A stretch of 64,000 nt of DNA, from IMG/VR virus record IMGVR_UViG_3300044712_001597, positions 1-64,000 of that record. One strand, 5' to 3'. Positions 1,321-62,322 of this stretch are shown here, piece by piece. The notes under the pieces are model-generated. The model was given only the letters and a program-made list of their open reading frames with translations, had not been told where the DNA came from and searched no databases. The DNA comes from a virus. Position 1 is the first letter of the stretch, and the number at the start of each line of letters is the position of its first letter. A program made the position numbers and the translations under genes.

Positions 1321-1362
1321 TTGTTTACTTTTAGATGCCTGCCATCTATAGTTTCAATTGTC
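1321..1362 (+). promoter_or_regulatory. leaderless-type promoter for the gene at 1363
   Basis: TTGTTTAC (1321-1328) is the -35 region. TATAGT (1347-1352) is the -10 box after an 18-base spacer from TTTAC. Exactly 10 bases (ending GTC) separate it from the ATG at 1363. A sigma-70-type start about 7 bases after the -10 box would leave about four leader bases, so the mRNA is essentially leaderless. The same layout recurs at six more plus-strand genes. Confidence 0.75.
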
Positions 1363-1572
1363 ATGAGCCCTAAAATCTATTTCAAGCATCCTCTTAGCAA
1401 CGGTGGAGTGTTGACTTTCTCTGCGCTGGTTGTTGCTACTCGTCTTCGTGATCGCGCTCCTATCGTACGCATTCCTTCTCGCGTGCGCAGCATTCCATTC
1501 CCTCCATTTGAAGGCCGCGCGATCGTTCAACTGAAACCCGAGTTTGCTCAACGCGTTGTTGAACTCCGCTAA
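1363..1572 (+). CDS. small hypothetical protein, first gene of a leaderless operon
   Basis: 69 residues from the ATG at 1363, chosen because it sits 10 bases after a TATAGT box in the shared gtcATGag context; the longer frame from 1321 would run through the promoter. The sequence is beta-rich and basic. Its stop shares a base with the next start (TAATG at 1570-1574). No family recognised. Confidence 0.6.
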   Translation: MSPKIYFKHPLSNGGVLTFSALVVATRLRDRAPIVRIPSRVRSIPFPPFEGRAIVQLKPEFAQRVVELR

Positions 1573-2105
1573 TGCAAACTTTCCTTCCCTATCCCGACTT
1601 CCGAGCCTCTGCAGCTTGCCTTGACAACAAGCGCCTTGGCAAACAGCGCGTTGAATGTCTCCAGATCTTCCACGCTCTCACTGGCTACAAGTGCGTGTTA
1701 GAGTCCGCGGAGCGAGGTTATGAAGTCCGCTTCACTCCTCAAGGTCCTAATCCTCGTGCCTGGTCTAAGCATCCAGCCGTCCGCATGTGGGAGTCTGACA
1801 TTCCTGCCTTGGTGGCTTACACCCTGGATGTCTGCAAAGAGTGGAAATCTCGCGGCTTCGTTGACAGCTGCGCGGACAAGATCATCCGGTCTTGGCGAGC
1901 CTACGCCGCGTCAAAAGGACTTCCGCAAGCCGTCTTTGCCACCGCTCCTTTTCCGTCCTGGATTACCATGGAGCTTTGCTTGTCGCATCGCTCTAACCTC
2001 ATCCGCAAAAATTGGTTGTTCTACGCTTCGTTGTGGCCGGGAGTTCCAAATGATCTTCCCTACGTCTGGCCAACTCCTCTCGCTCATCAATTCCAACCTC
2101 GCTAA
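1572..2105 (+). CDS. MSMEG_6728 / pyrimidine-dimer-glycosylase-like protein
   Basis: 177 residues. The N-terminus MQTFLPYPDF, then a run ending LDNKRLGKQRVE, is the signature of the MSMEG_6728 family, related to T4 endonuclease V (Pyr_excise), which cleaves the glycosyl bond at UV pyrimidine dimers. The W..HPA(V) and C.EW..RGF..SC motifs further on also fit that family. It probably acts on phage or host DNA in base-excision repair. The start overlaps the previous stop by one base. The family call is firm; the enzymatic activity is inferred. Confidence 0.7.
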   Translation: MQTFLPYPDFRASAACLDNKRLGKQRVECLQIFHALTGYKCVLESAERGYEVRFTPQGPNPRAWSKHPAVRMWESDIPALVAYTLDVCKEWKSRGFVDSCADKIIRSWRAYAASKGLPQAVFATAPFPSWITMELCLSHRSNLIRKNWLFYASLWPGVPNDLPYVWPTPLAHQFQPR

Positions 2106-2112
2106 AATCTCT

Positions 2113-2610
2113 ATGCTCACCGTTGCTCAACTCGCGGACGAAGTCGCCAAGTACGTCGTCGCTCAATCTGAAATTCCTGACGAAATTGCTTCTCAGATCA
2201 GCAAACTTGACGCTTCTCAGCTCGTGGAATTCAATACAGAGTTAGTCCGTAGTTTCACGCGACGTGGAACCGACGTCGTCCAAATTAAAGATCCTCGTGT
2301 CGCTGCGCTGGACTACATCCGAGCCGTGTACCACTTGGATGATTCGCAAAGTTTACCTAAGCGCCAAGAGCACGATGTCATCGCGGCCTTTGCTGCGGGA
2401 ATGCTCGAGTCTCACACTCTCTATTCTTCGTTGCTCTCCCACGGATTCTCTTCGAATTCTGGCGACACGCACTTCAACGCTCTTTATCATAAGCTTCTAC
2501 TTGTCAGTCTTAATCTCTCGGAATGTCTTTCTGAGTTTGCTAAACGGCACACGCAGGAAGCCGAGAATCTTAATCACTTCTCTCCTACCTTCCACCACCA
2601 ACAAAACTAA
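2113..2610 (+). CDS. hypothetical protein
   Basis: 165 residues from the ATG at 2113, seven bases after the previous stop, with no Shine-Dalgarno motif (AAAATCTCT precedes the ATG). It is helical throughout, with no Cys pair or nucleotide-binding motif. It ends QQN within ACCAACAAAACTAA, a 14-base sequence that also ends the next gene. No family recognised. Confidence 0.55.
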   Translation: MLTVAQLADEVAKYVVAQSEIPDEIASQISKLDASQLVEFNTELVRSFTRRGTDVVQIKDPRVAALDYIRAVYHLDDSQSLPKRQEHDVIAAFAAGMLESHTLYSSLLSHGFSSNSGDTHFNALYHKLLLVSLNLSECLSEFAKRHTQEAENLNHFSPTFHHQQN

Positions 2611-2659
2611 GTCGGCGAAAGAAATCGAAATTCGCATCGCCCTGACGGTTCGACAATTT

Positions 2660-3046
2660 ATGAATCAACACCCTGACCCTGTGGAGCCGGTGAAAACCGG
2701 AAAGATCGTATTTTCGATCAATGGCGTCCGCTTGCCAATCGAAGCGGAGATGATCCCCAAGCTTTTCGTCACGTACATCGCAGCAGAGCGGGCGGAATAC
2801 TACGCCGGAGTGGATGCCGCTCGGTGCGACGCTGCCGAAGGAGCAAACGCTTGCTTTGCCAGAGTGTTCCGTGAAGAAGTCAACCACGCGCTGCGTGACC
2901 GTGACGAGTTGGAAGACTGGCTTGCGAACAATACCAACTGGGCTTCGGAGCGAACGGACGGAATCACGGTCGAGTATTTGTCGCACGATACGCATCTGCC
3001 AGACACTGCCCAAACCACCACAAGTAATCCTAACCAACAAAACTAA
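2660..3046 (+). CDS. hypothetical acidic protein
   Basis: 128 residues from the first ATG in frame (2660), 49 bases after the upstream stop; no ribosome site supports another start. The N-terminal 40 residues look beta-rich. The middle is helical (AERAEYYAGVDAARCDAA), and an acidic stretch with two aromatic residues follows. The C-terminus ends QQN like the upstream gene. No family recognised. Confidence 0.5.
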   Translation: MNQHPDPVEPVKTGKIVFSINGVRLPIEAEMIPKLFVTYIAAERAEYYAGVDAARCDAAEGANACFARVFREEVNHALRDRDELEDWLANNTNWASERTDGITVEYLSHDTHLPDTAQTTTSNPNQQN

Positions 3047-3053
3047 ATCCAAC

Positions 3054-3365: not shown

Positions 3366-3369
3366 TCTT

Positions 3370-3729: not shown

Positions 3730-3738
3730 TTTTCCGCC

Positions 3739-3948: not shown

Positions 3949-3955
3949 ACTCTCT

Positions 3956-4990: not shown

Positions 4991-4996
4991 CCGGGA

Positions 4997-5239: not shown

Positions 5240-5252
5240 CTATACCAAAACG

Positions 5253-5504: not shown

Positions 5505-5557
5505 CATCCAAGATGAGGGATCGGCACCCTCAACCAAGCTGCCGAAAACACACTGAT

Positions 5558-7472: not shown

Positions 7473-7789
7473 AGTCCAAGAGACCAAATGGAACTCGCTG
7501 GATTCGATCGGCGCGACGTCTTCAAATCTATGCTCGCGACCGATGGACTTGCGTCTACTGCGAAACACCGGTATTCCGATCAACGGCTCACTTGCCTAAT
7601 GCTGCTTCGTTGGATCACATATTTCCTCGGTCTCAAGGCGGAACAAATGAGGCAACGAATCTCGTCACATGCTGCTTTCAATGCAACAGCCGTCGAGCTG
7701 ATTTGTCAGTTGTAGATTTCGCCATGACGTTTCATTTTCCTAAACAAGTTCTACGGCGTGTCAAAAACGCGCTACGCCGAAAAGTATAA
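7469..7789 (+). CDS. HNH endonuclease
   Basis: 106 residues, starting in an ATGA overlap with the helicase. The motif is complete: C28-x2-C31, LDHI with D49 and H50, GG.N..TN, and C69-x2-C72-N73, so a zinc-stabilised beta-beta-alpha-metal nuclease fold is expected. It could be a free-standing homing-type nuclease or a recombination nuclease working with the helicase. No split gene or intron is visible beside it. Confidence 0.85.
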   Translation: MKSKRPNGTRWIRSARRLQIYARDRWTCVYCETPVFRSTAHLPNAASLDHIFPRSQGGTNEATNLVTCCFQCNSRRADLSVVDFAMTFHFPKQVLRRVKNALRRKV

Positions 7790-7793
7790 CTCT

Positions 7794-8441
7794 ATGAAAA
7801 CCACCCTAGTTGCCACCACTACTCCGCGCATTGCCGGAGTCCAAACCGCCGACGAACTCATCGCTTATTGCGCGCGAGTTTCTAATCCTTCAAACCAACT
7901 CAACCACGAGACGGCTGACAAACTGCTGCGCTACTGCGCAAAGCATGGGCACTGGTCTGTGTTTGAGCAGGCGAGTATGACGGTGGAAATCGTCACCAGC
8001 CGCGCGATTGCAGCGCAGATTCTTCGTCACCGCTCTTTTTCGTTCCAAGAGTTCAGCCAGCGGTACGCGCGAGTTACGGCCTTTGAAGATGTCGAACTCC
8101 GTAAGCAAGGAGAGAAGAATCGTCAGGGCGGAGAGCAAGTCATCACGGAGGGACAAGCCATTCACTCAGTCAATCAAATCTTGGGCCTCATCAATGACGT
8201 CTATGACGACTTGCTTGAGCTTGGAGTGGCCAAAGAATGCGCGCGCATGATTCTTCCGCTCTGCACGCAAACGACGCTCTACATGACGGGCACCGTGCGC
8301 TCCTGGATCCACTATCTCCAACAGCGCTTGGATTCCCACGCGCAGAAAGAGCATAGACTTGTGGCCAATGGAGTGCGAGATATCTTCAAGCAGGAATTTC
8401 CTTCGGTATACCGAGCAGTGTTTGAGTTGCCTGGTGAGTAA
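7794..8441 (+). CDS. thyX: FAD-dependent thymidylate synthase ThyX
   Basis: 215 residues, the usual ThyX length. The family signature RHRxxSxxxxSxRY is present as RHRSFSFQEFSQRY starting near residue 78, and the C-terminal half has the SWIHYLQQR...HAQKEHR region. It methylates dUMP to dTMP using methylene-tetrahydrofolate, FAD and NADPH. The upstream dUMP source could be the dCMP deaminase encoded next. It starts at ATG 7794, four bases after the HNH stop. A second thymidylate-synthase-fold gene at 16036 is probably not redundant with it. Confidence 0.95.
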   Translation: MKTTLVATTTPRIAGVQTADELIAYCARVSNPSNQLNHETADKLLRYCAKHGHWSVFEQASMTVEIVTSRAIAAQILRHRSFSFQEFSQRYARVTAFEDVELRKQGEKNRQGGEQVITEGQAIHSVNQILGLINDVYDDLLELGVAKECARMILPLCTQTTLYMTGTVRSWIHYLQQRLDSHAQKEHRLVANGVRDIFKQEFPSVYRAVFELPGE

Positions 8442-8470: not shown

Positions 8471-8510
8471 ATTTACATATAAACAGCTGCCATCTATAGT
8501 CACCAGTGTC
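8471..8510 (+). promoter_or_regulatory. leaderless-type promoter for the dCMP deaminase gene
   Basis: TTTAC at 8472-8476, an 18-base spacer, TATAGT at 8495-8500, then 10 bases ending GTGTC before ATG 8511. The GCCATCTATAGT core is identical to that of the promoter at 1321. Confidence 0.75.
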
Positions 8511-9152
8511 ATGAGCTTTCCAACTAGTCTTACGGAGATTGAGCCCCTTTGCCTTCGCGACGCAGTTGCCCGCGCCGCCGAGGCCCGTAAACGAGGAGAA
8601 CCGATTTTGCCGTTCTACGCAACTCTTCCGAGTTTGCCGAATTTTGGATGGGCTCAATTCCGAGAATTGGTTCATTCTGTTCTCGCCCCCTCTCCGCAAG
8701 TTCCTCCGCGTCTTTCTTCCGATGACTACGCCATGGCCTTGGCTTACGTCGCTTCGCTGCGGAGCGAGGATCCAAAGCGGAAAGTAGGTGCAGTTGCGCT
8801 GAATCAAGAAAACCGCGTCATCGCTACGGCGTACAATGGACTGGTTCCAGGAGTGACCATGTCTGACGAGTGGTGGAGCGTAGATTCTAACCGTCGCACA
8901 TTTGTTCTTCACGCTGAGTCCAATCTTTGCAGTCTGACTTCTCGCGGCGATGTGGAGACCGTGGCCGTGACGACGGCTCCTTGTGGACCTTGTATGCTGA
9001 ATCTTATCGCCCATGGCGTCAAACGAGTGATCTACGGAGAGTCCTATCTCACTGACCCGAGTGGAGAACACATCGCAGAGTTCTATCAAGGTCGTATCGT
9101 TCTCAAGCACGTTCCGCTTTCTAAAGTTCACGATCTTCTCTCTATCGTCTAA
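8511..9152 (+). CDS. deoxycytidylate (dCMP) deaminase family protein
   Basis: 213 residues. A 75-residue N-terminal extension of unknown role precedes a cytidine/deoxycytidylate deaminase domain: KRKVGAVAL, zinc ligand H134 in HAE (E136 catalytic), and PCGPC with C158 and C161. dCMP deaminases make dUMP, the ThyX substrate. The start at 8511 is fixed by the leaderless promoter. The stop shares a base with the next gene's start (TAATG at 9150-9154). Confidence 0.85.
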   Translation: MSFPTSLTEIEPLCLRDAVARAAEARKRGEPILPFYATLPSLPNFGWAQFRELVHSVLAPSPQVPPRLSSDDYAMALAYVASLRSEDPKRKVGAVALNQENRVIATAYNGLVPGVTMSDEWWSVDSNRRTFVLHAESNLCSLTSRGDVETVAVTTAPCGPCMLNLIAHGVKRVIYGESYLTDPSGEHIAEFYQGRIVLKHVPLSKVHDLLSIV

Positions 9153-10352: not shown

Positions 10353-10610
10353 ATGCAAACTCAAGCCGATGTCTTGTCCAAGATCGAAAGCGTCATCCAG
10401 CAATTTGTCGAACTTCACTCGGTTCCGTCCGAACTGTGTCTTCCCGAGCTTGGGCTAGATAGTCTCGACATCGTTGAGTTTGCTCTCGAGCTCGAATCCA
10501 CTTTTGAAATCGAAATCTCTGAGGAGCTTATCGAAAAGATGAGCTTTTTCTCAGTGAAGCAGATTTCAGAAACGATCTACGCGATCGTCAACCCACAACC
10601 AACCAAATAA
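10353..10610 (+). CDS. acyl carrier protein
   Basis: 85 residues, the normal ACP length. LGLDSLDIVEFALELESTF contains the DSL motif with S37 as the phosphopantetheine attachment site, and the protein is acidic with a four-helix pattern. No ketosynthase, acyltransferase or phosphopantetheinyl transferase is seen nearby, so the protein would have to use host enzymes or a partner outside the window. It lies between a nuclease and a repeat-rich DNA-associated protein in the replication arm. The family call is confident; the role is unknown. Confidence 0.85.
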   Translation: MQTQADVLSKIESVIQQFVELHSVPSELCLPELGLDSLDIVEFALELESTFEIEISEELIEKMSFFSVKQISETIYAIVNPQPTK

Positions 10611-11744: not shown

Positions 11745-11852
11745 GCAGCGCAACCCTTTGGGTTCTGGCTACGGCCAGAAACTCATGACCCGAGCTGGCA
11801 GACCTCGGAAAAGGAGCGGAGTTCATCTTCGCTCGTCTGCCACCCCACTTTT
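11745..11852 (+). other. gene-free, hairpin-rich intergenic segment
   Basis: Contains AACCC/GGGTT (11752-11764), which competes with TTCTGG/CCAGAA (11763-11780). TGGCAGAC (11796-11803) pairs perfectly with GTCTGCCA (11835-11842), and a GAGCG/CGCTC hairpin nests inside. There is no clear T-run, so it is not a standard terminator. It could be a structured 5' leader for the gene at 11853 or an RNA processing site. Confidence 0.45.
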
Positions 11853-15368: not shown

Positions 15369-16039
15369 TCATTCTCGAAGGACCAGACGGAGTAGGAAAG
15401 ACTACCTTTGCAAAAGCGTTCTGCGAAAGGTTCAATGGATTTTACATCCATCTCACGCTCCGCAAAAATATGCACGCTCATCAAGTGGCTGCGTTATCTT
15501 TGGCGCTTCGCAAATCTCGCCGACACCCCGTCATCATTGATCGTCATTGGCCTTCGGAGCAAATCTACGCGGCCGTGTATCGCGGCGGATCCAATCTTCA
15601 GGACGAGGCTAAGTGGATGCATCGAACGTGCAACACTCTTGGAGTATTTACTCTTGTTTGCCTCGCCGGTTCAGTTGACCAAATGGTTAAGTCGCACCAT
15701 GCTCTATCGCAAGCCCGCAACGAGATGTATGAGCCCAGTAAGAAGTTTGAAGAAGTCGTCCGTTGCTACTATGATTGGTGGCATGGAACAAATCTGCGAA
15801 TGACGCACATGGGCTTCTGTGAAGAACTCAAACCCATGCGCACTCGTCACATGGCTTCAACGCTTTACGATCGTCTACAGTACGCCAGTCCTTTAGCCCT
15901 AAAAGAAGCTTGTGAAAACGTGCACGCTCTCGCGCAAGCTTGGCGAAAGTTCAACATGGAAGATCCTTTTGCTCAGCGGCTAGCTACACAATCCTATTTA
16001 CTTCGTTCAACTCTCGGGTATAAATCAAAATTGTCATGA
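15353..16039 (+). CDS. deoxynucleoside monophosphate kinase (thymidylate-kinase-like)
   Basis: 228 residues. The P-loop GPDGVGKTT has K16, and the LID/substrate region has IDRHWPSEQIYAAVYRGGS, the DR..xSE.xY pattern of phage dNMP/thymidylate kinases. It would make dNDPs from dNMPs. It overlaps the ThyA-family gene by four bases (16036-16039), which makes it the natural candidate to phosphorylate that enzyme's product. Confidence 0.8.
   Translation: MHRPIIILEGPDGVGKTTFAKAFCERFNGFYIHLTLRKNMHAHQVAALSLALRKSRRHPVIIDRHWPSEQIYAAVYRGGSNLQDEAKWMHRTCNTLGVFTLVCLAGSVDQMVKSHHALSQARNEMYEPSKKFEEVVRCYYDWWHGTNLRMTHMGFCEELKPMRTRHMASTLYDRLQYASPLALKEACENVHALAQAWRKFNMEDPFAQRLATQSYLLRSTLGYKSKLS
15997..16035 (+). 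promoter_or_regulatory. candidate leaderless-type promoter inside the kinase gene, for the ThyA-family gene
   Basis: TTTAC at 15997-16001, a 17-base spacer, TATAAA at 16019-16024, then 11 bases ending TTGTC before ATG 16036. It fits the family, with one extra base, and lies within the end of the kinase gene. Confidence 0.5.
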
Positions 16040-16902
16040 GTTCTGTTACTTCCCTTCCACCGGTCCAATCGCGTTCTTACTCGGCTAGCGCAGTATGGCG
16101 TAGGCTTCTTCGCCAAGTTCTGTGCGAAGGCGCTCCTTCAAAGCCAAGAGGAATGGAGATTCTCGAAGTCATTGGAAACCAGGTGCGCGTCGACATGCGG
16201 CATCCAGTGGTTCTCAGCCGAACCCGTCGCCTCAACTACAAGTTTATGGCGGCCGAAGCTTGGTGGATTCTCAGTGGCAAAAGAGATACGCAGTCCATTG
16301 GAAAGTTCTGCAAGAACATACTTCAGTTTTCCGACGACGGCGAAACCTTTTTTGGAGCCTACGGTCCGAAGATCCGAAACCAACTTGGGTCCGTCATTCG
16401 CTGCCTTGAGATGGATCGTGACTCACGCCAAGCGGTGATCAATATCTGGCGAGAAAATCCTCCAGTCTCAAAAGATATTCCGTGCACTCTGTCCGCACAG
16501 TTTCTCATTCGCGACAACAAACTGCACTGCATTGACACGATGCGATCTAACGACGTCTGGCTCGGATTTCCCTACGACGTCTTCAACTTCTCAATGCTGT
16601 CGTGGAAAGTTCTTGACGAACTGCGGTTTCGTAATCCTTCCTACCAATCTTTGGAGCTCGGTAGTCTTTACCTCAACGCCGGATCGCATCATCTCTACGA
16701 GAGAAACCGAGTCATGGCTGAAAGAATCACCGCCGAGGAAAATGATCTCGAGTATGATCCACTTCCGGAAGCAGGCTACTTCGTGGAGTCGGTAATCGAG
16801 GCTCAACTCGGCTGGGCGATAGGAACAGACGGCCTTCCGCTAAGCCTGTTGGTAACTCCATTTTTCAACTCGCTCCGGAACTTGCAAAAAGTTGAGTCCT
16901 GA
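16036..16902 (+). CDS. ThyA-family nucleotide C5 (hydroxy)methyltransferase, predicted dCMP-specific
   Basis: 288 residues with the thymidylate-synthase fold. The active-site Cys is C150 (DIPC), phosphate-binding R170-S171 and D173 lie in RSND, and HHLY matches the TS HLY motif. The residue aligned with E. coli TS Asn177 is Asp181 (GFPYD). Asp there is found in T4 dCMP hydroxymethylase, and the matching Asn-to-Asp change turns L. casei TS toward dCMP. A dCMP hydroxymethylase or methylase is therefore more likely than a second dTMP synthase, especially with ThyX present. A dUMP hydroxymethylase is less likely. Confidence 0.75.
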   Translation: MSSVTSLPPVQSRSYSASAVWRRLLRQVLCEGAPSKPRGMEILEVIGNQVRVDMRHPVVLSRTRRLNYKFMAAEAWWILSGKRDTQSIGKFCKNILQFSDDGETFFGAYGPKIRNQLGSVIRCLEMDRDSRQAVINIWRENPPVSKDIPCTLSAQFLIRDNKLHCIDTMRSNDVWLGFPYDVFNFSMLSWKVLDELRFRNPSYQSLELGSLYLNAGSHHLYERNRVMAERITAEENDLEYDPLPEAGYFVESVIEAQLGWAIGTDGLPLSLLVTPFFNSLRNLQKVES

Positions 16903-20098: not shown

Positions 20099-20140
20099 TT
20101 GTTTACATAGCTGGCATCTAGAGTTATAGCTCTACTTGTC
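20099..20140 (+). promoter_or_regulatory. leaderless-type promoter for the DUF932 gene
   Basis: TTGTTTAC ends at 20106, an 18-base spacer follows, then TATAGC at 20125-20130 and 10 bases ending TTGTC before ATG 20141. A TAGAGT upstream (20118-20123) would give too short a spacer. Confidence 0.7.
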
Positions 20141-20980
20141 ATGAGCAACCTAACTCACTCCAATCAACTTATCGAACTGACAGAATCCGATCTTCGCGAG
20201 CGCGTACCCGCAATCTACGCGACCGACGCAGACAGCCGAGTTTCTGACCGGTACACCTTCGTTCCAACATCCGACGTCCTTCCTGTCTTGCAAGATAGCG
20301 GTTTCGTCGTCACCTCTGCTTCTACTCGGCGAAGCGGTGGGATTCATGCCCGGCATCGTCTCGAACTGTTTCACCGAGACAGTCTCGATGATCTCCGTAA
20401 AGGCCGGTTGGATGGATGTCCGCGGGTGATTCTCGAGAACAGTCACGACCGCAGCCGCCGTTTGGTTCTACTGGCCGGGTATTACCGGCTGGTTTGCTCC
20501 AACGGTCTAGTGGTCGCCAGCGGAGCGTCCGGCGAACTCAAGTCGCTGCACCTCAAATTGGACCGCACGGCGATTTGCACGTTGGTCAAAGATCTCGCGC
20601 GAATGCTCGATGCGACCACCTCGGCTGCGGAGTCCTTCCGCAAGCGCATGTTGACTCCAATGGAGAAATCAACTTTCGCGTGCTACGCGCTCGAAGCTCG
20701 CTATCGCGGATGGAACTACTACCCCATCGAAGCGAAGTCCTTGCTGGCTGTTCGCCGCGACGCCGATAAAGGAGACGATCTTTGGACCGTGTTCAACCGA
20801 GTGCAGGAGAATATCGTGCGCGGAGGAATGACAACCAACGCAGGTCGCCGCAGTCAAGGCTTGAAAAGCTTCCACGCGTCCGTGAAGGTCAATCAGCAAC
20901 TTTGGGCCGGAGCCGAAGCTCTTGCTGCCGGAGGAACGAAGGCGCTACAAGTTCTGCGCAAGCAAATCTCCAAGGAGTAG
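20141..20980 (+). CDS. DUF932-domain protein
   Basis: 279 residues. RYTFVPTSDVLPVLQDSGF, the HARHRLEL region and RLVLLAGYYRLVCSNGLVV are the hallmarks of the phage/plasmid DUF932 family (TIGR03299-like). These proteins are common near recombination genes, but their function is unknown. It is a monocistronic unit with its own leaderless-type promoter and a strong terminator 16 bases after the stop, which implies high, separately controlled expression. Confidence 0.8.
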   Translation: MSNLTHSNQLIELTESDLRERVPAIYATDADSRVSDRYTFVPTSDVLPVLQDSGFVVTSASTRRSGGIHARHRLELFHRDSLDDLRKGRLDGCPRVILENSHDRSRRLVLLAGYYRLVCSNGLVVASGASGELKSLHLKLDRTAICTLVKDLARMLDATTSAAESFRKRMLTPMEKSTFACYALEARYRGWNYYPIEAKSLLAVRRDADKGDDLWTVFNRVQENIVRGGMTTNAGRRSQGLKSFHASVKVNQQLWAGAEALAAGGTKALQVLRKQISKE

Positions 20981-21056: not shown

Positions 21057-21097
21057 TTGTTTACTTCTTAGCAGAAGTTGATATGGTCAGAAATGTC
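21057..21097 (+). promoter_or_regulatory. leaderless-type promoter with embedded palindrome, for the AAA ATPase gene
   Basis: TTGTTTAC at 21057-21064, a 17-base spacer, TATGGT at 21082-21087, then 10 bases ending TGTC before ATG 21098. The spacer contains the perfect palindrome ACTTCT-TAGC-AGAAGT (21063-21078), a candidate operator shared with the promoter at 22119. Confidence 0.75.
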
Positions 21098-22051
21098 ATG
21101 AGCAAACCAAACAACATCCAAATCGGCACCCCGGTCCAAGTCAAGATTCGCGGTGAGATTGTCACAGCAACCTACGTCGGCTGGAGCGACCGCTACGACA
21201 CGGGAATTGTGGAGTACAATGGCGATCGCCACTACCGCAAGATTCAAACGGACGGGTCGAGCAGCTTGTCTTCCTCGTCTCCTATCGAAGTTAAGCCAAG
21301 CCGCTTCAACATCAACACGCGGTTCGACTTCATCGAGCAGGTCGTGGACATGGTCATCGCCGGCGAAAGCAAGTCAGTGATCATCACGGGTGATGGCGGT
21401 CTCGGAAAAACTCACACGGTCATGGACCGCGTAAAGAAAGCGGGTCTTGCAGCCAGCGAAGTTTTGGAAGACGCCGATGAAGATGATGAAGAAGGAGAAC
21501 GCACCAGCGGGGTCACGGTCGGCGATTACTTCGTGGTGAAAGGCTTCATCACCAGCCGCGCTCTCTATGAACTGCTCTACGAAAACCGCGACCGCATCGT
21601 GATTTTCGACGATTGCGATAGCGTGTGGGAAGCTCCTACGTCGGTATCGATTCTCAAAGCTGCGTTGGACAGCTACGACACTCGCACAATCAGCTGGCTC
21701 AGCGCGATGAGCGACCCCGACATTCCGCGCTCCTTTGAGTTCCGCGGGCGCATCATCTTCGTCAGCAACCAGAGTCTCGGTAAGCTGGATCAAGCGGTGC
21801 TTAGCCGCTGCCTCTACGTGGACGTTACGATGACGCCAACGGAGAAAATCGAGCGCATCCGCTTTATCGCTCCCAATGTCCGCCCCGATATGTCGATGGC
21901 CGCGAAGAAAGAAGTGGTTGATCTGCTCGAGGAGTTCAAGGACCGCGTGGGCGATCTCAACATCCGCACGTTCTTGAAGGTGTGCGACATCCGCAGTCGT
22001 GGTTCCGAAAACTGGCGCGATCTCGCGGAGTATATGATCACTGCGTTCTAA
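21098..22051 (+). CDS. AAA-family ATPase
   Basis: 317 residues from ATG 21098, set by the promoter. A beta-rich N-terminal part of about 60 residues (TPVQVKIRGEIVTATYVGWSD) resembles a small barrel. Walker A GDGGLGKT is at about 98-105, an acidic insert EDADEDDEEGE follows, Walker B IFDDCD is near 169, and a later Arg in LSRC is a sensor/arginine-finger candidate. The role is unknown; phage AAA proteins of this sort act in replication or protein remodelling. It is a single-gene unit with its own promoter and terminator. Confidence 0.8.
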   Translation: MSKPNNIQIGTPVQVKIRGEIVTATYVGWSDRYDTGIVEYNGDRHYRKIQTDGSSSLSSSSPIEVKPSRFNINTRFDFIEQVVDMVIAGESKSVIITGDGGLGKTHTVMDRVKKAGLAASEVLEDADEDDEEGERTSGVTVGDYFVVKGFITSRALYELLYENRDRIVIFDDCDSVWEAPTSVSILKAALDSYDTRTISWLSAMSDPDIPRSFEFRGRIIFVSNQSLGKLDQAVLSRCLYVDVTMTPTEKIERIRFIAPNVRPDMSMAAKKEVVDLLEEFKDRVGDLNIRTFLKVCDIRSRGSENWRDLAEYMITAF

Positions 22052-22118: not shown

Positions 22119-22159
22119 TTGTTTACTTCTTAGCAGAAGTCGGTACTATCTAAATCGTC
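22119..22159 (+). promoter_or_regulatory. leaderless-type promoter with embedded palindrome, for the DUF2786 gene
   Basis: TTGTTTAC at 22119-22126, a 17-base spacer, TACTAT at 22144-22149, then 10 bases ending CGTC before ATG 22160. ACTTCT-TAGC-AGAAGT (22125-22140) repeats the palindrome of the promoter at 21057. Confidence 0.7.
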
Positions 22160-22888
22160 ATGAGCAACACCACATCTACTTCACAGCAGGAAAGCCTGCT
22201 CAACAAAATCCGTAATCTCCTCAAGCTGGCTGATCCGGCAAACGGAGCCACGCAGGCCGAAATGGAAACCGCGATGCGCAAAGCGCAAGAGCTTATGGTT
22301 CGCCACGGCATCGAGCAAATGGACCTCGGCAGCGCCGCCGAAGCCTCTCCCGTGGACGAAGAGCGCGTCACGATGTCCCGCAAGAAGTATCCGCAAGATC
22401 GTTGGATCCCGCGGGTTCTGAAAGCAGTGTTCGACGTCGACATTTTGGTCTCTTCCGCTTGGCGTCATGGAGCATACCGCCACATGTACATCATCATTGG
22501 AGAGCCGGTTGACCGTGAAGCCGCGAAGATGGCGATCACCTACGTTTTCGACGCGATGACAAAAGGCCTCAATGCGTACCTCAAAGTGACGGGCCAATCA
22601 TGGAATTCTACGACGGCTCATTCGTTCTATCGTGGAGTCGCTGAAGGTTTCATCCGCGAATCGGCTCACGGACGCGCAGCCGCTATGAAGCGCTTTAAGA
22701 AAGAAGAGCAAGACCGCTTCGCGATTGTTCTGGTCGACAAGTCGAAAGCGATCGCCAAGTACGTCGAGACGAAATATCCGAAGCTGCGCTACGGCAGCCG
22801 AGGAATCCGCGCGAACTTCGATGAGTCAGCCCACGCGGCCGGGCACGCAGCGGGAGCCGCTATCGACTTCTCCACGAAGCTCAATTAA
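22160..22888 (+). CDS. DUF2786-domain protein
   Basis: 242 residues. The N-terminal KIRNLLKLADPANGATQAEM and a following KAQELMVRHGI match DUF2786. The remainder (YIIIGEPVDREAAKMAITYVF...AHSFYRGVAEGF) fits the domain that usually follows it (DUF7168-like). The function is unknown; such proteins are common in phages and mobile elements. It lies directly behind its own leaderless-type promoter and is followed by two very small genes. Confidence 0.75.
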   Translation: MSNTTSTSQQESLLNKIRNLLKLADPANGATQAEMETAMRKAQELMVRHGIEQMDLGSAAEASPVDEERVTMSRKKYPQDRWIPRVLKAVFDVDILVSSAWRHGAYRHMYIIIGEPVDREAAKMAITYVFDAMTKGLNAYLKVTGQSWNSTTAHSFYRGVAEGFIRESAHGRAAAMKRFKKEEQDRFAIVLVDKSKAIAKYVETKYPKLRYGSRGIRANFDESAHAAGHAAGAAIDFSTKLN

Positions 22889-23014: not shown

Positions 23015-23184
23015 TCAAAACGCTTCAACGCGAATTCGTCGGTCGATGCTCTTGCGGTCGGCCGGCGAATGTTCGCATCCGCACGGTGCTTGAGCGAAAG
23101 CAAATGTTCGACGGAAAAGTAGTTCCCATTTGCACCGTGGGTTATCTTCTTTGCGAAGAATGCGCGACTTCGCGATCTCATTGA
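22996..23184 (+). CDS. small zinc-ribbon protein
   Basis: 62 residues if started at GTG 22996; the frame is open back to a GTG at 22930. CSC near residue 18 and CEEC near residue 55 form a four-Cys zinc-ribbon pattern. It overlaps the preceding membrane peptide. It is the last gene of the plus-strand arm and ends inside the stop region of the opposing giant gene (overlap 23178-23184), with no terminator between. Confidence 0.5.
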   Translation: MAHPEVVKTLQREFVGRCSCGRPANVRIRTVLERKQMFDGKVVPICTVGYLLCEECATSRSH

Positions 23185-26100
23185 TGGCGCGGATTTCGCA
23201 GAACCTGCTTGATCATCTCTTCGTATTCTTCGGGAGACGCGTCGGCTTTACGAATTCCGCGATTCAGTAGAATGGTTTCCGCTTTCTTGCGTTCCTCTAT
23301 CCAGGACTGACGATTGAAGGACCCGTCCGGATTAGAATAGCGCGGATTGTATCCCGGCATGGCCCGGAACGGCTCTTCTGCGAGTCCTGACAGAAAACGA
23401 GTCATCGAGGATGAGCCAGGCGTGACTTTTATTGGCTCAGATGCAAGATTTACCGCGGACAGGGGAGAAATCACGCCTGACTCGCCGTCGATCACTTCTG
23501 GAATATCAGACCCGACATCTGACAAAGGCATGGCCTGAAATCCTGGGCCTCCTGGCTTTTTTGAGTCTATCAAGCTTTGAAGCTCTTCGTCAGAGACATT
23601 TTCGACTAGAGCGGCAAAAAGTAAATTGGCCGTGACGGATGCCGAGTGGATGTTTGATACTGGAAGTCCAACAGGGTGATTGTTCAAAGTCAAGCCGTAA
23701 GTAATATCGTTAGGGTCGATAATCTTCCACACGTTTCCTTGAGGATCTGTGTGCACGTTGGATTTCGACCAATCTTGACTGCTAGCCCAATTCACTAAAC
23801 TTTCTGCAAGATTTTTTTTCGGCGGACTCGTTTTGGTCTTCTTTGGTTTTCCAAAGACTGCCGCGACGGCCTCGTCCAGCGTGTCGTAGGATTCTCCTTC
23901 CTTGATACGGCGACCGATTTCCCAAACCGACCATCCTCCGTTTCGCTTCTCGATGAACGTTTTTCGCTTAGACTTAGGACTATTAGGATTAAATACCGTG
24001 AATTCGTCGATGTTTCCGAGTCCCGAGACCCCTGTAATTTTCAAATCGGGGTATTTCATAAGAAACTCGGCCATGAAATCTGCTGAGATAGAGCTCTTAG
24101 CGGCATCGTGCAGAGTATCTGATTTATGAGGTTTTCCATCCGACGTGCTTGACCCAAACGAAGTATCCTTGTGGGCTTCTGCTTGGCTCTGAGCGAGAGC
24201 AAATACTTGATCCAACGACGGCAACGTCCCAAACACCTTTCCGGCCATCTGAACGTCCCATCCTTTAGAGTCATCTCCGCTCACGTCGATAGTCTGCGAT
24301 GGAGAAACTTTCAACTCGAAAGTTAAGGAATCTGCGAATCCATGCAAGTTTTCAACTTGAACATCTGGAGCAATCTTTTTCGCAGCGTTTATGAAGTCCG
24401 CCGTTGTCATTCCCGCAGACAGTTTGGGGCTTTGATTGGCTTCTTTGCTCTGCGGGTCTACCGACTCAGGCGCGTCGAGAGATTTGAAAGCGATGTCAAA
24501 TCCTGGACTTGTGCTCTTGTCGAACTCCGGCTCGCTTGCTAAATCTTTCCAGCTTTTCGCACTTGCGATATCTTCAAAAGACTTGGCGCTAACGATTTCT
24601 TTTAGATACTTCAAACTTTTGTTGATTCCTTGTCTATGGTAGACGCCATAATTAAACTCAATTCCATGCGCGTCAAACGAGTGAATTTGAATTCCTGTCT
24701 TGTCGATGATAAGCGTGTTCGCGATGTCGCTCGGAGTAGTCCACTCGTAAATCAGCGGTGGATCCGTCGGACTAAACGGCTCTGCGCCGGCCCATCCCCA
24801 CCAATCTTCTTTCGAAAACGGTTTGAACGCGGATAGTAGCGACTCTGAAGAGATGAGAGTTTTTTGCGACTTTGGTTGCGGCGATTTTGAAATCATCTCG
24901 GACACTGGACGCTCAACTTGCTCTCCGCGTCCTTCAAGGTCCTTGAGCACCGGCAACGCGATCTTGCGCATCTTGCTGGACACAAACGGAAGCAGTTCAC
25001 GGATAGACTTCGCATTGGCTTTGAAGTCAAGCATCTTCTTGATCCAACGATGTCCCTCAGAAGCGCGGTAGTAATTCTGCAGTTTGTTGAACACCGTGTC
25101 CGTATTATGCTGCAAGTCGTAAACGTGGTCGATAGCCACCGCTTTTTGAGACAGCGTCTGCGCGTTTCGCAGCATCAACCAGCCGTCAGCGATTCCGGCC
25201 CACGCGCGTCCGCCATACGCACTGTTCCATCTTCCTTTGGAGAACAAAGTTTGCGCGAAGCTGACAACTTGCGTGCGAGTCCAGCCGAGTTTGTCGGCAG
25301 CTCGGCGCAGCGCAGCGTAACTAGTCTCATAGCTATCGCTTTGTCCCTTAAGCTCGGCATCTTCACCTGGCTTACGGTTTTCGTATCCTGCTTTGTAGGC
25401 ACTATGATACTTGATAAACTGTTGATAGAGCGGATTGTCTTGAATTTCTTTAGGTTGTTTGTTGTCGAGTCCGTGGCGAAACTCTGCGGCAATCGCGAAA
25501 TACACTGCGTCCAAAAGCTTTTCTTGAAGATTGGGATAGAATATCCGCTTGGCGTAGTCCAAGTCGTTTTCATACTCTTTGTAGCGAAGACCGCGAATCC
25601 TGTCCGGCGAGTTGACAGACGATGCGAATATCTTATCAAAAGGCATAGTCTCCAAGTACGACAAGACGTAGAAGTCAGCCATTGTCACCTTCGGATCATG
25701 CGGAAGATCGTATGTCACCGAAGGCATGAACTGCGGCTGGCCTTGGGTAATCACGTCGCGCCGCATTTCGGGGGTAATGCTGACACGATGAATCGGGACT
25801 TTCTCGCCCGCAACGCTCACCTTGAACTCCATGTTTTCGTCAGGAGCGATGATCATCTCCCACCCAAGATTTTCTGCTTCTTCTTTGGTCTTAACCGACA
25901 GTAAGTCTTCTAAAATGGAGTTTGCTTGCTCAAGACCTTCTCTGGAAGAAGTGTTATCTTCTTCGCGAAAGAACATCGACATTTCAAATTCTGCTTCGCC
26001 GCCGATTACTGAGACTCCATTCCTGTCAACTATGATACTCGCGGGTCTTCCATTCACCGCAAGCTCTCCAATATAGGGCCGGATCTTGTCAGAGAATTCC

Positions 26101-35515: not shown

Positions 35516-36394
35516 TTACTCCTTGCTAGTTTGAGTTGTTGGTTTCCACGAAAAGAGAGGTCCTAGCTCAGAGTCTACGCGCAAGTTGCAATACGCGGCC
35601 GAAGGAGATTCCCATGCCACCAAGTCGGGACGATTGACGACCTCAGTTTGATACTTCGGGCAAAACACGGAAGAGGGTTTTGACGGATCCACGCAGCGAA
35701 AGCAAGCCGAGTAATAGTCTGAGTTGAGAGTCTTATCCGACTTGGTTTGACCGGAGGCCGCGTCATAGCGGTTTTCATCGAGAGGAACATCGTACTGCCG
35801 AGCGTATTCAAAAACGTCTTCATCCGTCCAGTTCCTCAACGGGAAAGCAGCCGCGGCTCCCAGAGGATTCTGCACAAACGATACGCTGAGCGGAATATCG
35901 CCCGAACACGGATCGCTATCCACGGATTTGTGGCCGTGGAACATACAATTCCAAGTAAAGTCGAAAGATCCTGTCGGACGAGACAAAAAAGAAGTCAGAC
36001 CGCACAAAAACGAACTTTCGACTCCAGGCTCTGTAGTTCCGCGCGCCAGGGTGAGATAGTCCGGAGATGGAGAAGCGAAAGAGCTGATTTGATACTTCTG
36101 AAGAACATCCACACGCCCATTGCCTGCGCAAAGAGAAATTGACGACGGTGCGTAGTCATAGGTCTCAAGATTCCACTCTTGAATCAGGCGGAAAATAAAC
36201 TGCAACTTGCGCGGATACCACGGTTCTTTCCAGCACACGACTGGAAGTTCAACTCCAAGGCCGAAGCGAAGCAAGTGCAGCATGACGGTCGAATCTTTTC
36301 CGCCGCTCCAAAGAACGCACGGACGAGTATTCTCGCGAAGCACTTTTTCGCAGAAATCCAAAGTGGAAGAAACTTTTGCGGAAAGAGCGTCCAT
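35516..36394 (-). CDS. PAPS-reductase-family / N-type ATP pyrophosphatase
   Basis: 292 residues. SGGKDSTV (30-37) is the PP-loop of the adenine-nucleotide alpha-hydrolase superfamily. Later Cys residues (CFRC, FCPKY) could bind metal or a cluster. The family covers PAPS/APS reductases, DndC-type phosphorothioation proteins and sulfurtransferases. It sits oddly inside the virion-protein operon (three bases after the upstream gene), not with the nucleotide enzymes. The substrate cannot be told from sequence. Confidence 0.75.
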   Translation of the reverse strand: MDALSAKVSSTLDFCEKVLRENTRPCVLWSGGKDSTVMLHLLRFGLGVELPVVCWKEPWYPRKLQFIFRLIQEWNLETYDYAPSSISLCAGNGRVDVLQKYQISSFASPSPDYLTLARGTTEPGVESSFLCGLTSFLSRPTGSFDFTWNCMFHGHKSVDSDPCSGDIPLSVSFVQNPLGAAAAFPLRNWTDEDVFEYARQYDVPLDENRYDAASGQTKSDKTLNSDYYSACFRCVDPSKPSSVFCPKYQTEVVNRPDLVAWESPSAAYCNLRVDSELGPLFSWKPTTQTSKE

Positions 36395-36397: not shown

Positions 36398-37210
36398 TTA
36401 GAAAGCCAGCAATCCCGCACCCGCTAAAGAAGTTCCTCCGGCGATCAACGAGCCAGTAAGATTTCCCGAGTTTGAAAGATTTGCTCCAGTCATCGCGTTT
36501 GTAGCTTGCGCATTTCCCGATCTACGAGCTGCTTCAAGCTGAGCATTGTTCGTGCGACGTTGCGTCTCCATCTGCATGGCTTGTTGAAACGCGTTGAGTA
36601 CGTTTGAAGCGTTGTTGCCGAGAAAGCCAAGTACCTCTCCGCGATGAGAGTCTCGGGCATCAGCGTTGGCGGACCGGACGGCCGTCATGTTTGAAGCAAT
36701 AGCTCCCGGATCCAAACCGGCGACGGGACGAGGAGTCCCTGCCATGATCGAAGCAGCCTTGGTTTGAATTCTATCACGGTCCGCGATAAAGTCACGCCTT
36801 GTCCGGTCTGCGAGCGAAGAACGTGCAAATCCAGAGCCCAAGCGAGTGCCTGTGGCAATAGCGTCTTCCAATCCTTGACGCACCCAGAGGTTCGAGAGTT
36901 CGGTAGAAGGTCCGCCTTCGAGCTCGGACAGCACTTCACGCGGAAGTTTCTCACGCATGGTGGCCACTTCGGGATTGAGTTGACGGTCCAACTCTCGAGA
37001 CTTGAGTTCATTCACCAGCGACTCGCGGGCCACTGCTTTCTGCAGCGCATCGGTATCCGCAATTCTGAGTTCAGGCGGAAGCGCGATGGCCGCATCAGTG
37101 AGATTGCTCGAAAGTCGCAAAGCTTCAAGCAACCGAGAATTGTATCCTTCAAGAGGATTGACTTCAACCGGTTTTGCGACAACTGGTTTGGATGACGATG
37201 TTCCGCCCAT
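36398..37210 (-). CDS. putative internal virion or tail protein
   Basis: 270 residues. The N-terminus MGGTSSSKPV is followed by a helical body (about 25-160) with an Arg/Asp-rich centre. A Gln/Asn/Ala-rich stretch follows, then a Gly/Ala/Ser-rich C-terminus (SGNLTGSLIAGGTSLAGAGL) that could insert into a membrane, as in ejected core proteins. The start is separated from the preceding gene by 14 bases. The role is inferred from position and composition. Confidence 0.5.
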   Translation of the reverse strand: MGGTSSSKPVVAKPVEVNPLEGYNSRLLEALRLSSNLTDAAIALPPELRIADTDALQKAVARESLVNELKSRELDRQLNPEVATMREKLPREVLSELEGGPSTELSNLWVRQGLEDAIATGTRLGSGFARSSLADRTRRDFIADRDRIQTKAASIMAGTPRPVAGLDPGAIASNMTAVRSANADARDSHRGEVLGFLGNNASNVLNAFQQAMQMETQRRTNNAQLEAARRSGNAQATNAMTGANLSNSGNLTGSLIAGGTSLAGAGLLAF

Positions 37211-37224
37211 AGTGCTTGGATATA

Positions 37225-37608
37225 TTATGACTCTGACAATGAGTAAATCTCCCGCTTCAATCGAGTAAATCCAGCGGATTCAATCATTTCAGTGGGAAAT
37301 GTGGAGCGATCAGCCGCGAGCGGAACTCCAATCAAGCCATCGCCAGCATTCTGAAACTGACAGTGAGCTCTCCAGCTCTGAAGAACTTCTACGACTCCGC
37401 GAGGAGTAGTCAGCGCGGGATGAAACGCTGGAAAAGCAATAGGGACGTAGAGAACGTCGGCGTAGCCAAACACTCTGCCCTCTCGCTCGAAGCAAAACAC
37501 TTTTCCATTCCGCATAGGGTGAATTTCGTGGTCGAAAGTGCGCGCAAACTGCTGGAGCTTTACAAACTCAGGAGTATACGTTGGAACATCGCAGATTTTG
37601 GTTTTCAT
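37225..37608 (-). CDS. hypothetical protein, possibly GNAT-like
   Basis: 127 residues, overlapping the upstream stop as ATGA (37605-37608). It has a compact alpha/beta pattern, with GRVFGYADVLYVPIAFPAF followed by a helix and ESAGFTRLKREIYSL at the C-terminus; the last resembles the end of GNAT acetyltransferase-like phage proteins. The CoA-binding motif is not clear, so the assignment is weak. Confidence 0.45.
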   Translation of the reverse strand: MKTKICDVPTYTPEFVKLQQFARTFDHEIHPMRNGKVFCFEREGRVFGYADVLYVPIAFPAFHPALTTPRGVVEVLQSWRAHCQFQNAGDGLIGVPLAADRSTFPTEMIESAGFTRLKREIYSLSES

Positions 37609-51502: not shown

Positions 51503-51683
51503 AACGATTTCTTTCTTTTTGAGGTTGAAGCTGACGGTTGTCTACTCTTCGTCCTCGGCACGTTAGGACTGATTGCGGCCTGTGCGTCTTACACTAACAC
51601 TCTAAGACTGAGTAGCTCGTGCGTGAGCCATTCGATGATGTAGCCTATAACTCGGAAAAGGCCGACAGGTAAACAAAAAAATT
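51503..51683 (-). promoter_or_regulatory. promoter and long leader of the major capsid gene
   Basis: On the minus strand GTTTAC (51674-51669, preceded by TT) and TATAGG (51649-51644) form the same promoter type as the plus-strand leaderless genes. Here the start codon lies about 140 bases further on. The leader ends CAAAAAGAAAGAAATCGTT before the ATG, an A/G-rich ribosome site. Unlike the plus-strand genes this is a leadered mRNA, perhaps for high translation or control. Confidence 0.6.
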
Positions 51684-60223: not shown

Positions 60224-60238
60224 GAGGATTGTTTGAGA

Positions 60239-60739
60239 CTAGTCCAGGGATTGAGCAAGATCGACGACTCTTGGAGAGACGTTGACGTCCACGCGCTCTG
60301 TGAGCTCACCAGCGAGTTTCGCGTCCAATTGAAGAGCGGCGAGTTTATCCACGCTCTTGACGACGTCTCCATGCGGAGTAGGACGAATCTCCGAAGCTAA
60401 GTCAGAATGGATGTGGATTTCGCCGATGGGAGTTCGTACGGCTCGGGCGAGGAAGTCGCGTTTTTCGTCCAAGCTCAAGAAGCGATCACTCTGTGAGCGA
60501 GCAGCGAGTCGTGCTTTGAGCTCAGCGACATAAGCTTGGACTTCCGGCTTGCGGATGAGCTTAGTGGCTCGATTGGCCGCCATTCCGCCTCGAGCTTTCT
60601 CGCTGGCCACGTTCCATGACGCGCAGTGCTGTGGAAAAGCTGCGAGATACGCACGATAGAGCGGATAACCATCGAGAACGTGCATGTCCACGAATTCTCG
60701 TTGCTGCAGAGTCAAACGTTGTGCGGCGCGGGATAGCAT
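60239..60739 (-). CDS. terminase small subunit
   Basis: 166 residues from ATG 60739; a TTG at 60757 is possible. LTLQQREFVDMHVLDGYP followed by AYLAAFP is the DNA-binding helix-turn-helix signature of small terminases. A helical oligomerisation region (KPEVQAYVAELKARL) follows. It recognises the packaging site and hands DNA to the large subunit. The lower-coordinate gap to the large-subunit gene is 15 bases. Confidence 0.8.
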   Translation of the reverse strand: MLSRAAQRLTLQQREFVDMHVLDGYPLYRAYLAAFPQHCASWNVASEKARGGMAANRATKLIRKPEVQAYVAELKARLAARSQSDRFLSLDEKRDFLARAVRTPIGEIHIHSDLASEIRPTPHGDVVKSVDKLAALQLDAKLAGELTERVDVNVSPRVVDLAQSLD

Positions 60740-60784
60740 AACGCCGGCAAGATACAACTCGCGAAGCCTGCAAGTAAAACAGAC

Positions 60785-61264
60785 TTATCTGCCGAGAAGG
60801 TGCGAGGCCATCGCGATCAACGGCGCGTCGCAAGTCATGTTGGTCCACTTCCAGTCTGGCCAGTATTCTTGAGCGAGAGCTTTGAGTTGTTTCTTTCGAA
60901 TCGCTCTATCTCTACTCCGAGCAGAACGAGGTAGAACTCGGTTCATCCAGTATTCTGGAGGAGGTTGATAAAAACTGAGAGTAGGTTTCTCAATCAGCTG
61001 GTACATCAAGATGGCTCCGCGAATCAACGCGTAGTTCTCGTGCAGAACGGACATGATGGCCGCGGATCGATTTTCGCCAGCAAACTTGGGGATCAACTCC
61101 ATATACACTCTATCGCAAGCAGAGCATACCTCTCGGCAGACGCGCACAATCTCTGAGTCCGTTTCAGGCATCTTCCAGCCAGAAGTCACGCGGTACGCTC
61201 CATTCTCTACTGAGAGCATGACGATTCCGCCTCCTTTTCCTGGATCTACCCCGCAGATGTTCAT
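60785..61264 (-). CDS. RuvC-like Holliday-junction resolvase (RNase H fold)
   Basis: 159 residues. MNICGVDPGKGGG gives the first catalytic Asp (D7) in the RuvC-type GxDPG motif. YMELIPKFAG supplies the acidic residue of strand 4, and MTCDAPLIAMASHLL at the C-terminus the last Asp. It would resolve branched DNA before packaging. It is the first gene of the minus-strand operon. Confidence 0.8.
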   Translation of the reverse strand: MNICGVDPGKGGGIVMLSVENGAYRVTSGWKMPETDSEIVRVCREVCSACDRVYMELIPKFAGENRSAAIMSVLHENYALIRGAILMYQLIEKPTLSFYQPPPEYWMNRVLPRSARSRDRAIRKKQLKALAQEYWPDWKWTNMTCDAPLIAMASHLLGR

Positions 61265-61426
61265 GTTTCGGACACTATCTTACTTCGCAGTAAACCAGCA
61301 CTCAAAATTACTTAGCAGAAAAATAGTTTGTAACATAGGATGTGCACGGACTAAACTTATGTGGGAGTTTTTAGAAATATAGGCTGAATAGGGGGGTTGA
61401 GTAGTGTGAGCCCCCCTGTTCTGACC
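61265..61426 (+). promoter_or_regulatory. divergent intergenic region between the two operons
   Basis: Contains promoter-like signals for both strands. On the minus strand TTGAGT and TAAGAT (17-base spacer) lie 12 bases before the resolvase ATG. A TTACT-TCGC-AGTAA palindrome overlaps them, and CTTAGCAGAA nearby matches the core of the promoter palindromes at 21063 and 22125. On the plus strand, GGGGGG (61391-61396) and CCCCCC (61411-61416) form a hairpin just before ATG 61427. Confidence 0.5.
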
Positions 61427-62275
61427 ATGTTTCGAAAAACCGCCAATGAAGTTTGGTCAACTCACATCGCTATGTTACAAAAAACCAGAAAACTCAACTT
61501 GAAGCCCGTATCTGACCCTGTTCCAGGGACTTATACACTTCTTCCAGAAAATACACAACCCGGCGAGCTCGTAGAAACTGCGTCCGAGGAGTACGAAAAG
61601 GCCTGCCAATTGGAATCCGATGCCCTCGAAAGGCTCAATTTGGCCAAGCAATCGCTGGTCGCCTTGCGAGCGGAACACACCCGCCAAAAGGCCAATTTGG
61701 CCCAAAAAATCGCAGACGAGACACAGAAAGCCAACGTTTTCGTGCTCGAGTGCCGTGAAAACTTCCTCCGATTTCAGAAACTTCGGGGCAAACTGCGCCG
61801 TCAAATTGGTGATAAAACCATCGCGCAGGAGGTCGCTTTGGCCAACCGGTTGAGCCGAAATGACAAACTTCATGCCATTCGCATCGACCTTATTGACGTC
61901 AAAGCTCATTTGCGGCAAATCAAGGCTCTTTCGCGCCGTGGAGTGTCGCTTTCCAACGATCCTCGTCTTGAAGAATATCTTCCTCATCGACTCAAGGGAG
62001 AGTCCATTCCTAATCTCTTGACCCGATTGTTCCGCCACTTCGAGAAGAAGCTTCTTGAGCTGGAGCGAGAGTACGTGCGGGCGAAAGCCGGGCCGATCTA
62101 CAAAGAGTCGGCCGCGAGAGACATCTTCCCTGCGAAGCCTTCTAAAGCAGTTGAAGAACCTTCTCCCGCGCATAGCCACTTCGACGCTGAGGAAGTTGCG
62201 AAGCAGCTGCGCAAACACAAGGCTCCCAAGATTGACGACCTGCCCGTGAAGCTGACCATCTCAAAGAAAAAATAA
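61427..62275 (+). CDS. coiled-coil protein of unknown function
   Basis: 282 residues from ATG 61427. The upstream TTG-started frame (61397) would run through the G/C hairpin and is rejected. Residues about 50-180 form a long Lys/Glu-rich coiled coil (ALERLNLAKQSLVALRAEHT), then helices with REYVRAKAGPIYKES, and a basic C-terminus. Without enzymatic motifs its role is open. It is the first gene of the right-hand plus-strand run, divergent from the structural operon. Confidence 0.6.
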   Translation: MFRKTANEVWSTHIAMLQKTRKLNLKPVSDPVPGTYTLLPENTQPGELVETASEEYEKACQLESDALERLNLAKQSLVALRAEHTRQKANLAQKIADETQKANVFVLECRENFLRFQKLRGKLRRQIGDKTIAQEVALANRLSRNDKLHAIRIDLIDVKAHLRQIKALSRRGVSLSNDPRLEEYLPHRLKGESIPNLLTRLFRHFEKKLLELEREYVRAKAGPIYKESAARDIFPAKPSKAVEEPSPAHSHFDAEEVAKQLRKHKAPKIDDLPVKLTISKKK

Positions 62276-62280
62276 TTTTT

Positions 62281-62322
62281 TTGTGTACATGGCAGCTTGC
62301 TACGGATATAGATCTACTCGTC
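62281..62322 (+). promoter_or_regulatory. leaderless-type promoter for the HTH gene
   Basis: TTGTGTAC at 62281-62288, an 18-base spacer, TATAGA at 62307-62312, then 10 bases ending CGTC before ATG 62323, matching the family at 1321, 8471, 20099, 21057 and 22119. Confidence 0.7.

Follow-up and report, generated by a model that had tools for sequence, protein, structure and literature searches.

Middle and late genes of the Thermus phage P23-45 are reportedly expressed from leaderless transcripts. The lambda cI message is likewise a leaderless phage transcript (PMC9031893), and the AR9 paper remarks that phage transcripts often are (PMC5312081). Leaderless genes are also widespread in several bacterial groups (PMC3160421, PMC5397173), and in the strict bacterial signature about 12 bases separate the first T of TANNNT from the start codon (Zheng et al. 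2011, PMC3160421). Here we describe a related arrangement in an uncultivated virus, IMG/VR record IMGVR_UViG_3300044712_001597. The stretch analysed, referred to as the window, comprises 64,000 nt, and the full record (65,686 bases) is the window plus 1.7 kb. In it, seven plus-strand genes carry sigma70-type promoters that stand at a fixed distance from the start codon. As in the TA-led leaderless genes of bacteria (PMC3160421), TANNNT lies a short fixed distance before the start and no Shine-Dalgarno (SD) sequence is needed, but here the same GTC-ATG-AG and a motif in the promoter spacer also recur across unrelated genes. As in the leaderless phage transcripts, the message would have little or nothing ahead of the start codon of the phage gene; the difference is that here one promoter, one spacer motif and one 5' sequence are conserved over a multi-gene family, mainly of early-region genes. 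This conserved promoter family is genuine, and is a variant of known near-leaderless initiation limited to one uncultivated sub-clade.

Seven promoter-ATG sites on the plus strand

Each of the seven upstream regions contains TTTAC (TGTAC at 62323), then 33 or 34 bases, then gtcATGAG. The initial annotation had reported a shared element at these plus-strand sites, and all seven were found where it had placed them. Its description of the element needed some revision. The TTTAC core is present at six sites, but the -35 reads ATTTAC rather than TTGTTTAC at 8511 and 16036, and TGTAC at 62323. A TATAGT-like -10 box is present, although some copies are poor (TATAAA, TATAGC, TATAGA). The term phage-wide was too broad, since all seven copies lie on the plus strand, in the early region, and the exact element is confined to one sub-clade.

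We searched the full record for TKTAC-N30/31-GTCATGAG, which revealed seven matches on the plus strand and none on the minus strand, compared with a mean of 0.005 and a maximum of 1 in dinucleotide shuffles (n=200). A shuffled-sequence control had been proposed with the initial annotation, and the pattern is not equally frequent in shuffles. A loose form, TKTAC-N33/34-ATG, occurred 9 times against 2.5 in shuffles, so the significance rests on the joint motif. When the exact short pattern was searched across IMG/VR, the right spacing was found in 17 stretches and an off-spacing control (ATG 36-37 bases from TTTAC) in 9. Because the spacer motif occurs in just three of the 17, namely L035, L045 and L043 (which is on one contig with L017), the database-wide matches are mostly chance.

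The family has a -35 TTTACW, a spacer of 16-18 bp and a -10 TANNNT, and the 20 bases ahead of the -35 are 73% A+T, compared with 47% in the genome. We scanned the sequence with an E. coli-consensus sigma70 matrix, built without the seven sites and applied at a threshold of 8.3. On the plus strand the site at 8472 ranked first and that at 1324 second. Six of the seven sites exceeded the threshold, each 10 or 11 bases ahead of the start codon, and the distance from -10 to ATG peaked at 10 bases. The near-consensus -35 and -10 hexamers, 16-18 bp apart, are those of sigma70-type promoters.

With the position left free, 23 of 28 sites had their best -10 ending 9-11 bases ahead of the ATG, whereas about 5% is expected at each distance from shuffles. 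A pyrimidine occupied -4 in 26 of the 28 sites, and -3 was G in 27, the G having been partly selected for. This pyrimidine-G step falls 7-8 bases past the -10, the usual start distance, and the messages are therefore predicted to begin 5'-GUC-AUG. As the first T of TANNNT lies about 16, not about 12, bases from the start codon, the strict leaderless signature is absent and we consider the seven sites near-leaderless, with a predicted leader of 3-4 bases. The fixed -10-to-ATG spacing over unrelated genes, from which a leader of about this length had already been deduced, is genuine and is kept in orthologues.

Table 1. Promoters and associated features of the window, with coordinates on the window and distances given to the ATG
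Feature	Position	Strand	Elements
Promoter of 69-aa gene 1363-1572	1324..1367	+	TTTAC 1324-1328; operator-like TAGATGCCTGCCA 1332-1344; -10 TATAGT 1347-1352; gtcATGAG
Promoter of dCMP deaminase gene 8511-9152	8472..8515	+	TTTAC 8472-8476; operator-like TAAACAGCTGCCA 8480-8492; -10 TATAGT 8495-8500
Promoter of thymidylate-synthase-like gene 16036-16902	15997..16040	+	TTTAC 15997-16001; -10 TATAAA 16019-16024; 11 bases to ATG
Promoter of DUF932 gene 20141-20980	20102..20145	+	TTTAC 20102-20106; operator-like TAGCTGGCATCTA 20108-20120; -10 TATAGC 20125-20130
Promoter of gene 21098-22051 (phrog_1250)	21060..21102	+	TTTAC 21060-21064; motif TAGCAGAAGTTGA 21069-21081; -10 TATGGT 21082-21087
Promoter of DUF2786 gene 22160-22888	22122..22164	+	TTTAC 22122-22126; motif TAGCAGAAGTCGG 22131-22143; -10 TACTAT 22144-22149
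Promoter of gene 62323-62682	62284..62327	+	TGTAC 62284-62288; best operator match TGGCAGCTTGCTA 62290-62302; -10 TATAGA 62307-62312
Candidate regulator, 119-aa protein	62323..62682	+	HTH_6 E=0.01, below curated cut-off
Promoter of gene 36398-37210 (ATGGGCGGA)	37208..37247	-	TTTACT 37247-37242; -10 TATATC 37224-37219; 8 bases to ATG
Capsid-leader RNA hairpin	51551..51582	-	CAGGCCGCA; stem GTCCT/AGGAC; loop AACGTGCCG
Capsid promoter	51644..51676	-	TTGTTTAC 51676-51669; weak -10 TATAGG 51649-51644; capsid ATG 51502
Promoter of terminase small subunit gene (ATG 60739)	60737..60778	-	TTTACT 60778-60773; -10 TATCTT 60754-60749; 9 bases to ATG

The 16036 promoter sits within the 3' end of the preceding gene. 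We further noticed that the phage has two different thymidylate-synthase-like genes on the plus strand, 7758-8441 and 16036-16902 (phrog_85 type and phrog_5131/phrog_160 type). An 85-aa protein (10353-10610, plus strand) matches the phosphopantetheine attachment (acyl carrier protein) family above the cut-off, which is unusual in a phage.

Conservation in relatives and the spacer motif

The collection of isolated phages contained no close relative: DNA polymerase identity reached at most 25%, and the 705-aa primase-like protein and the 765-aa protein had no match there. Relatives were taken from IMG/VR. The DNA polymerase gave 11 contigs at 58-64% identity, an alignment-based polymerase search added ten at about 30% identity, and one scan with the terminase returned 474 relatives, 80 of which were kept. 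TKTAC-N30-32-TCATGA was matched 30 times in the close relatives plus two other contigs, compared with 2 for a reversed-pattern control. All 30 matches have G before TCATGA, a base that was not part of the query, and a few extra sites finish in GTTATG. The exact element was essentially absent in relatives at about 40% terminase identity or about 30% DNA polymerase identity, and we therefore assign it to one sub-clade.

At orthologous genes, the promoters of 8511, 20141, 21098 and 22160 show the same spacing in three or four related records, some of which are near-duplicates. The dCMP deaminase and DUF932 promoters (8511 and 20141) are each kept in G001, G002 and G006, the phrog_1250 promoter (21098) in G010, G011, G002 and G006, and the DUF2786 promoter (22160) in G001, G002 and G011. 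The spacing has been kept despite divergence of both the spacers and the N-termini. The orthologues found for 16036 lacked the promoter, and no orthologue of 1363 or 62323 was found in the related records. Operon-internal genes are mostly without the element.

In some phages the motif opens a very short frame. L045 and the contig shared by L035 and L067 each have a 9-codon frame opened by GTCATGAG. At the L067 site (TTTACAAAAGAGGCAGCCAGCC, same contig as L035) the frame encodes MRQQTPSHQ, and its stop codon shares bases with the start of the frame that follows (AATGAAAG). It is possible that this frame is a near-leaderless minicistron coupled to the gene. The overlap suggests that an ATG at the fixed spacing is wanted for itself. 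Separately, in L008 (9280), L015 (9321) and L016 (8153) an inverted repeat, GGCAGAC...GTCTGCC, lies just ahead of a minus-strand GTCATGAG. The repeat adjoins the DNA polymerase region, on the minus strand near window position 11786, and may be a terminator or another RNA element.

Most spacers of the family contain a 13-bp motif near TRGCAGYYAGYYA or its reverse, an imperfect dyad of the form TRGC-N5-GYYA that the initial annotation had missed. Its summed score over 26 sites was 259, compared with 186 in shuffled spacers (maximum 200), and the window sites alone gave p=0.0005; both tests are partly circular, the consensus having been taken from the same sites. With that reservation on the score, the shared motif overlaps the promoters, as in an operator-controlled phage regulon, and a single DNA-binding protein probably uses it as its operator. 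In operator-promoters of the lambda type, a short dyad lies between or overlaps the -35 and -10. The placement is alike here, but the window has a single imperfect 13-bp dyad whose offset shifts, spread over many scattered promoters, and the regulator is only a weak candidate. The best match to the motif in the genome, 12 of 13 positions, lies in the 62323 promoter, and the protein encoded there is a weak candidate for an autoregulator acting at this operator.

Late-strand promoters and the capsid leader

The initial annotation had also divided the genes into an early leaderless and a late leadered class. Two late-strand promoters, those of the terminase small subunit gene (60739) and the gene starting at 37210, are near-leaderless too, with the ATG 8-9 bases behind the -10, and relatives support them; the division is thus unsupported. 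Several of the relatives, but not every one, also have a TTTAC about 30-34 bases ahead of the terminase small subunit gene, and an arrangement similar to that at 37210 is seen in G002 and G026. We dropped a further late-strand candidate, a promoter at 61264, because it was not found to be conserved in relatives. The gene at 35516-36394 (minus strand), in the virion gene cluster, partly matches PAPS reductase over residues 7-47.

The capsid gene is a genuine leadered exception. Its promoter had been described as a minus-strand relative of the family with a long leader. The good -35 (TTTGTTTAC) and a leader of about 135-140 bases are real, but the -10 is a weak TATAGG. A 9-codon frame, ATGGCTCACGCACGAGCTACTCAGTCTTAG (51632-51603, minus strand), begins about 12 bases past the -10; similar letters occur in some relatives, and the frame is not conserved.

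Further into the leader lies an RNA hairpin that much of the clade (many of L184-L262) keeps ahead of the same capsid gene. In it, CAGGCCGMA is followed by a linker, then by a stem that varies and the loop A[AG]CGUGCCG. All 32 distinct sequences form four stem pairs, and compensatory changes are numerous. In an alignment of 18 sequences, 97% of cells pair compared with 76% in shuffles, double-sided changes number 30 against 8.6, and slid controls pair at 26-56%. The form searched was missing at about 29 of 81 loci. An invariant GGC-GCC match in the loop may allow a pseudoknot. No Rfam family matches the hairpin. Among the IMG/VR matches listed for the hairpin pattern, 80 were examined and 7 had the stem, at least 6 of these upstream of this capsid protein; most of those listed are chance matches. 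A natural guess is that the hairpin controls the capsid message, and it may represent a new structured RNA that belongs with this capsid family.

Readings of the fixed spacing

We consider it likely that the seven sites are one sigma70-type promoter family joined to start codons, near-leaderless and co-regulated through the spacer operator. The polymerase, start point, translation route, repression and regulator that we infer are as follows. Host RNA polymerase would read the seven promoters through the -35 TTTACW, the 16-18 bp spacer and the -10 TANNNT, starting transcription at the G of GTC, three bases ahead of the ATG. The -10 would set the 5' end, and the 5' end would present the AUG; with promoter and start codon acting as a single unit, the spacing would be fixed. 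Translation of the 5'-GUC-AUG-AG message would follow a leaderless-like route, the host being one in which phage genes make little use of SD. One DNA-binding protein at the spacer operator, perhaps a repressor, would co-regulate the set, several genes of which serve nucleotide metabolism and replication. In SD-poor groups, including Bacteroidetes, Cyanobacteria, Chlorobi and Planctomycetes, leaderless messages or protein S1 may underlie the signals seen upstream of the start (PMC5397173), and it is plausible that the host comes from a group of that sort.

Several results count against this interpretation. The -10 boxes here lie about 4 bases farther from the start codon than that of the strict leaderless signature (PMC3160421). 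The spacer-motif consensus was derived from the very sites scored, and the 16036 spacer contains no operator-like motif. The only regulator signal is the sub-threshold helix-turn-helix match in 62323-62682, and none was identified with confidence. Genome contigs were searched for a host with the DNA polymerase and the terminase, and none carried a relative.

A more ambitious version can be put forward only tentatively. Here the element would be a dedicated near-leaderless initiation signal of the clade: the messages would all begin 5'-GUC-AUG-AG and be loaded by host ribosomes independently of SD, some phages using for this a 9-codon minicistron that is coupled to the gene (L067), and one phage regulator would switch the whole set through the spacer operator, while the capsid message would instead use its long leader and conserved hairpin.

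Alternatively, the units could be ordinary leaderless starts of an SD-poor host, in which any promoter-proximal gene of phage or host would look alike; we regard this as rather unlikely. SD-like motifs were found at 8% of called genes compared with 11% of random positions in this genome, and at each of the two positions just before the ATG, 77% of genes have a pyrimidine. The SD-free gap had been offered as special evidence for the seven sites, an argument that fails: with SD at background genome-wide, its absence there is ordinary for this phage. The same background suits ordinary leaderless starts, as do the late-strand genes lying close behind their promoters and the spread of leaderless genes over several bacterial groups (PMC3160421, PMC5397173). 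Against this reading, GTC-ATG-AG and the spacer motif are site-specific, and most late-strand genes lack them. The second codon is AGC or AGT at 7 of 7 sites compared with 3 of 41 other genes, although the sites had been preselected by gtcATGag.

It is improbable that transcription begins close to TTTAC, in the manner of AT-rich phage RNA polymerase promoters, with the 33-34 bases forming a conserved untranslated leader. The TTTAC-to-ATG distance (33 or 34) is indeed as constant as that from -10 to ATG. However, the 34 bases vary while TANNNT recurs 9-11 bases from the ATG, the -35/-10 spacing is of the sigma70 type, and the would-be leader has neither SD nor a common structure.

Less probable still is a phage-encoded polymerase of the N4 virion type, which recognizes small hairpins; the spacer dyads would then be the hairpins and the 3450-aa protein the enzyme. 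The N4 virion RNA polymerase uses hairpin promoters, and N4, like this genome, combines small dyads near phage gene starts with a giant virion protein. Several spacers do contain good dyads (ACTTCT-TAGC-AGAAGT, TAGATG-CCTGC-CATCTA), and the virion gene sizes (402-aa capsid protein, 765-aa protein, 3450-aa protein) recall those of N4. Yet the dyads are not universal and have no fixed place, being absent or weak at 8511 and 16036 with varying offsets elsewhere, and the canonical -35 and -10 boxes account for the constant positions. The 3450-aa protein had no convincing match in Pfam or in solved structures, which include the N4 virion polymerase, and no sequence homology to that enzyme was detected. 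An N4-like assignment from gene sizes was dropped, as it had no sequence support. The 3450-aa protein (23178-33530, minus strand) has almost no family matches, and a short stretch of it matches a PHROG of unknown function.

Recent duplication of one promoter cassette, with the spacing due to descent and not constraint, is very improbable: the first 14 spacer bases are common to 21098 and 22160, but the other spacers and the discriminators differ, and the spacing is held, with the spacer changed, in orthologues of phages about 60% identical in DNA polymerase.

The promoter family joined to start codons allows start codons and transcription-unit starts to be called from sequence, for example 21098 and not 21083, or 16036 and not 16153, and it makes a candidate regulon readable in the same way. 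The sites would also supply short-leader messages that share one fixed 5' sequence, a natural collection for studying start-codon choice in SD-poor bacteria. The clade is large and uncultivated, and its gene control becomes readable from sequence without an isolate.

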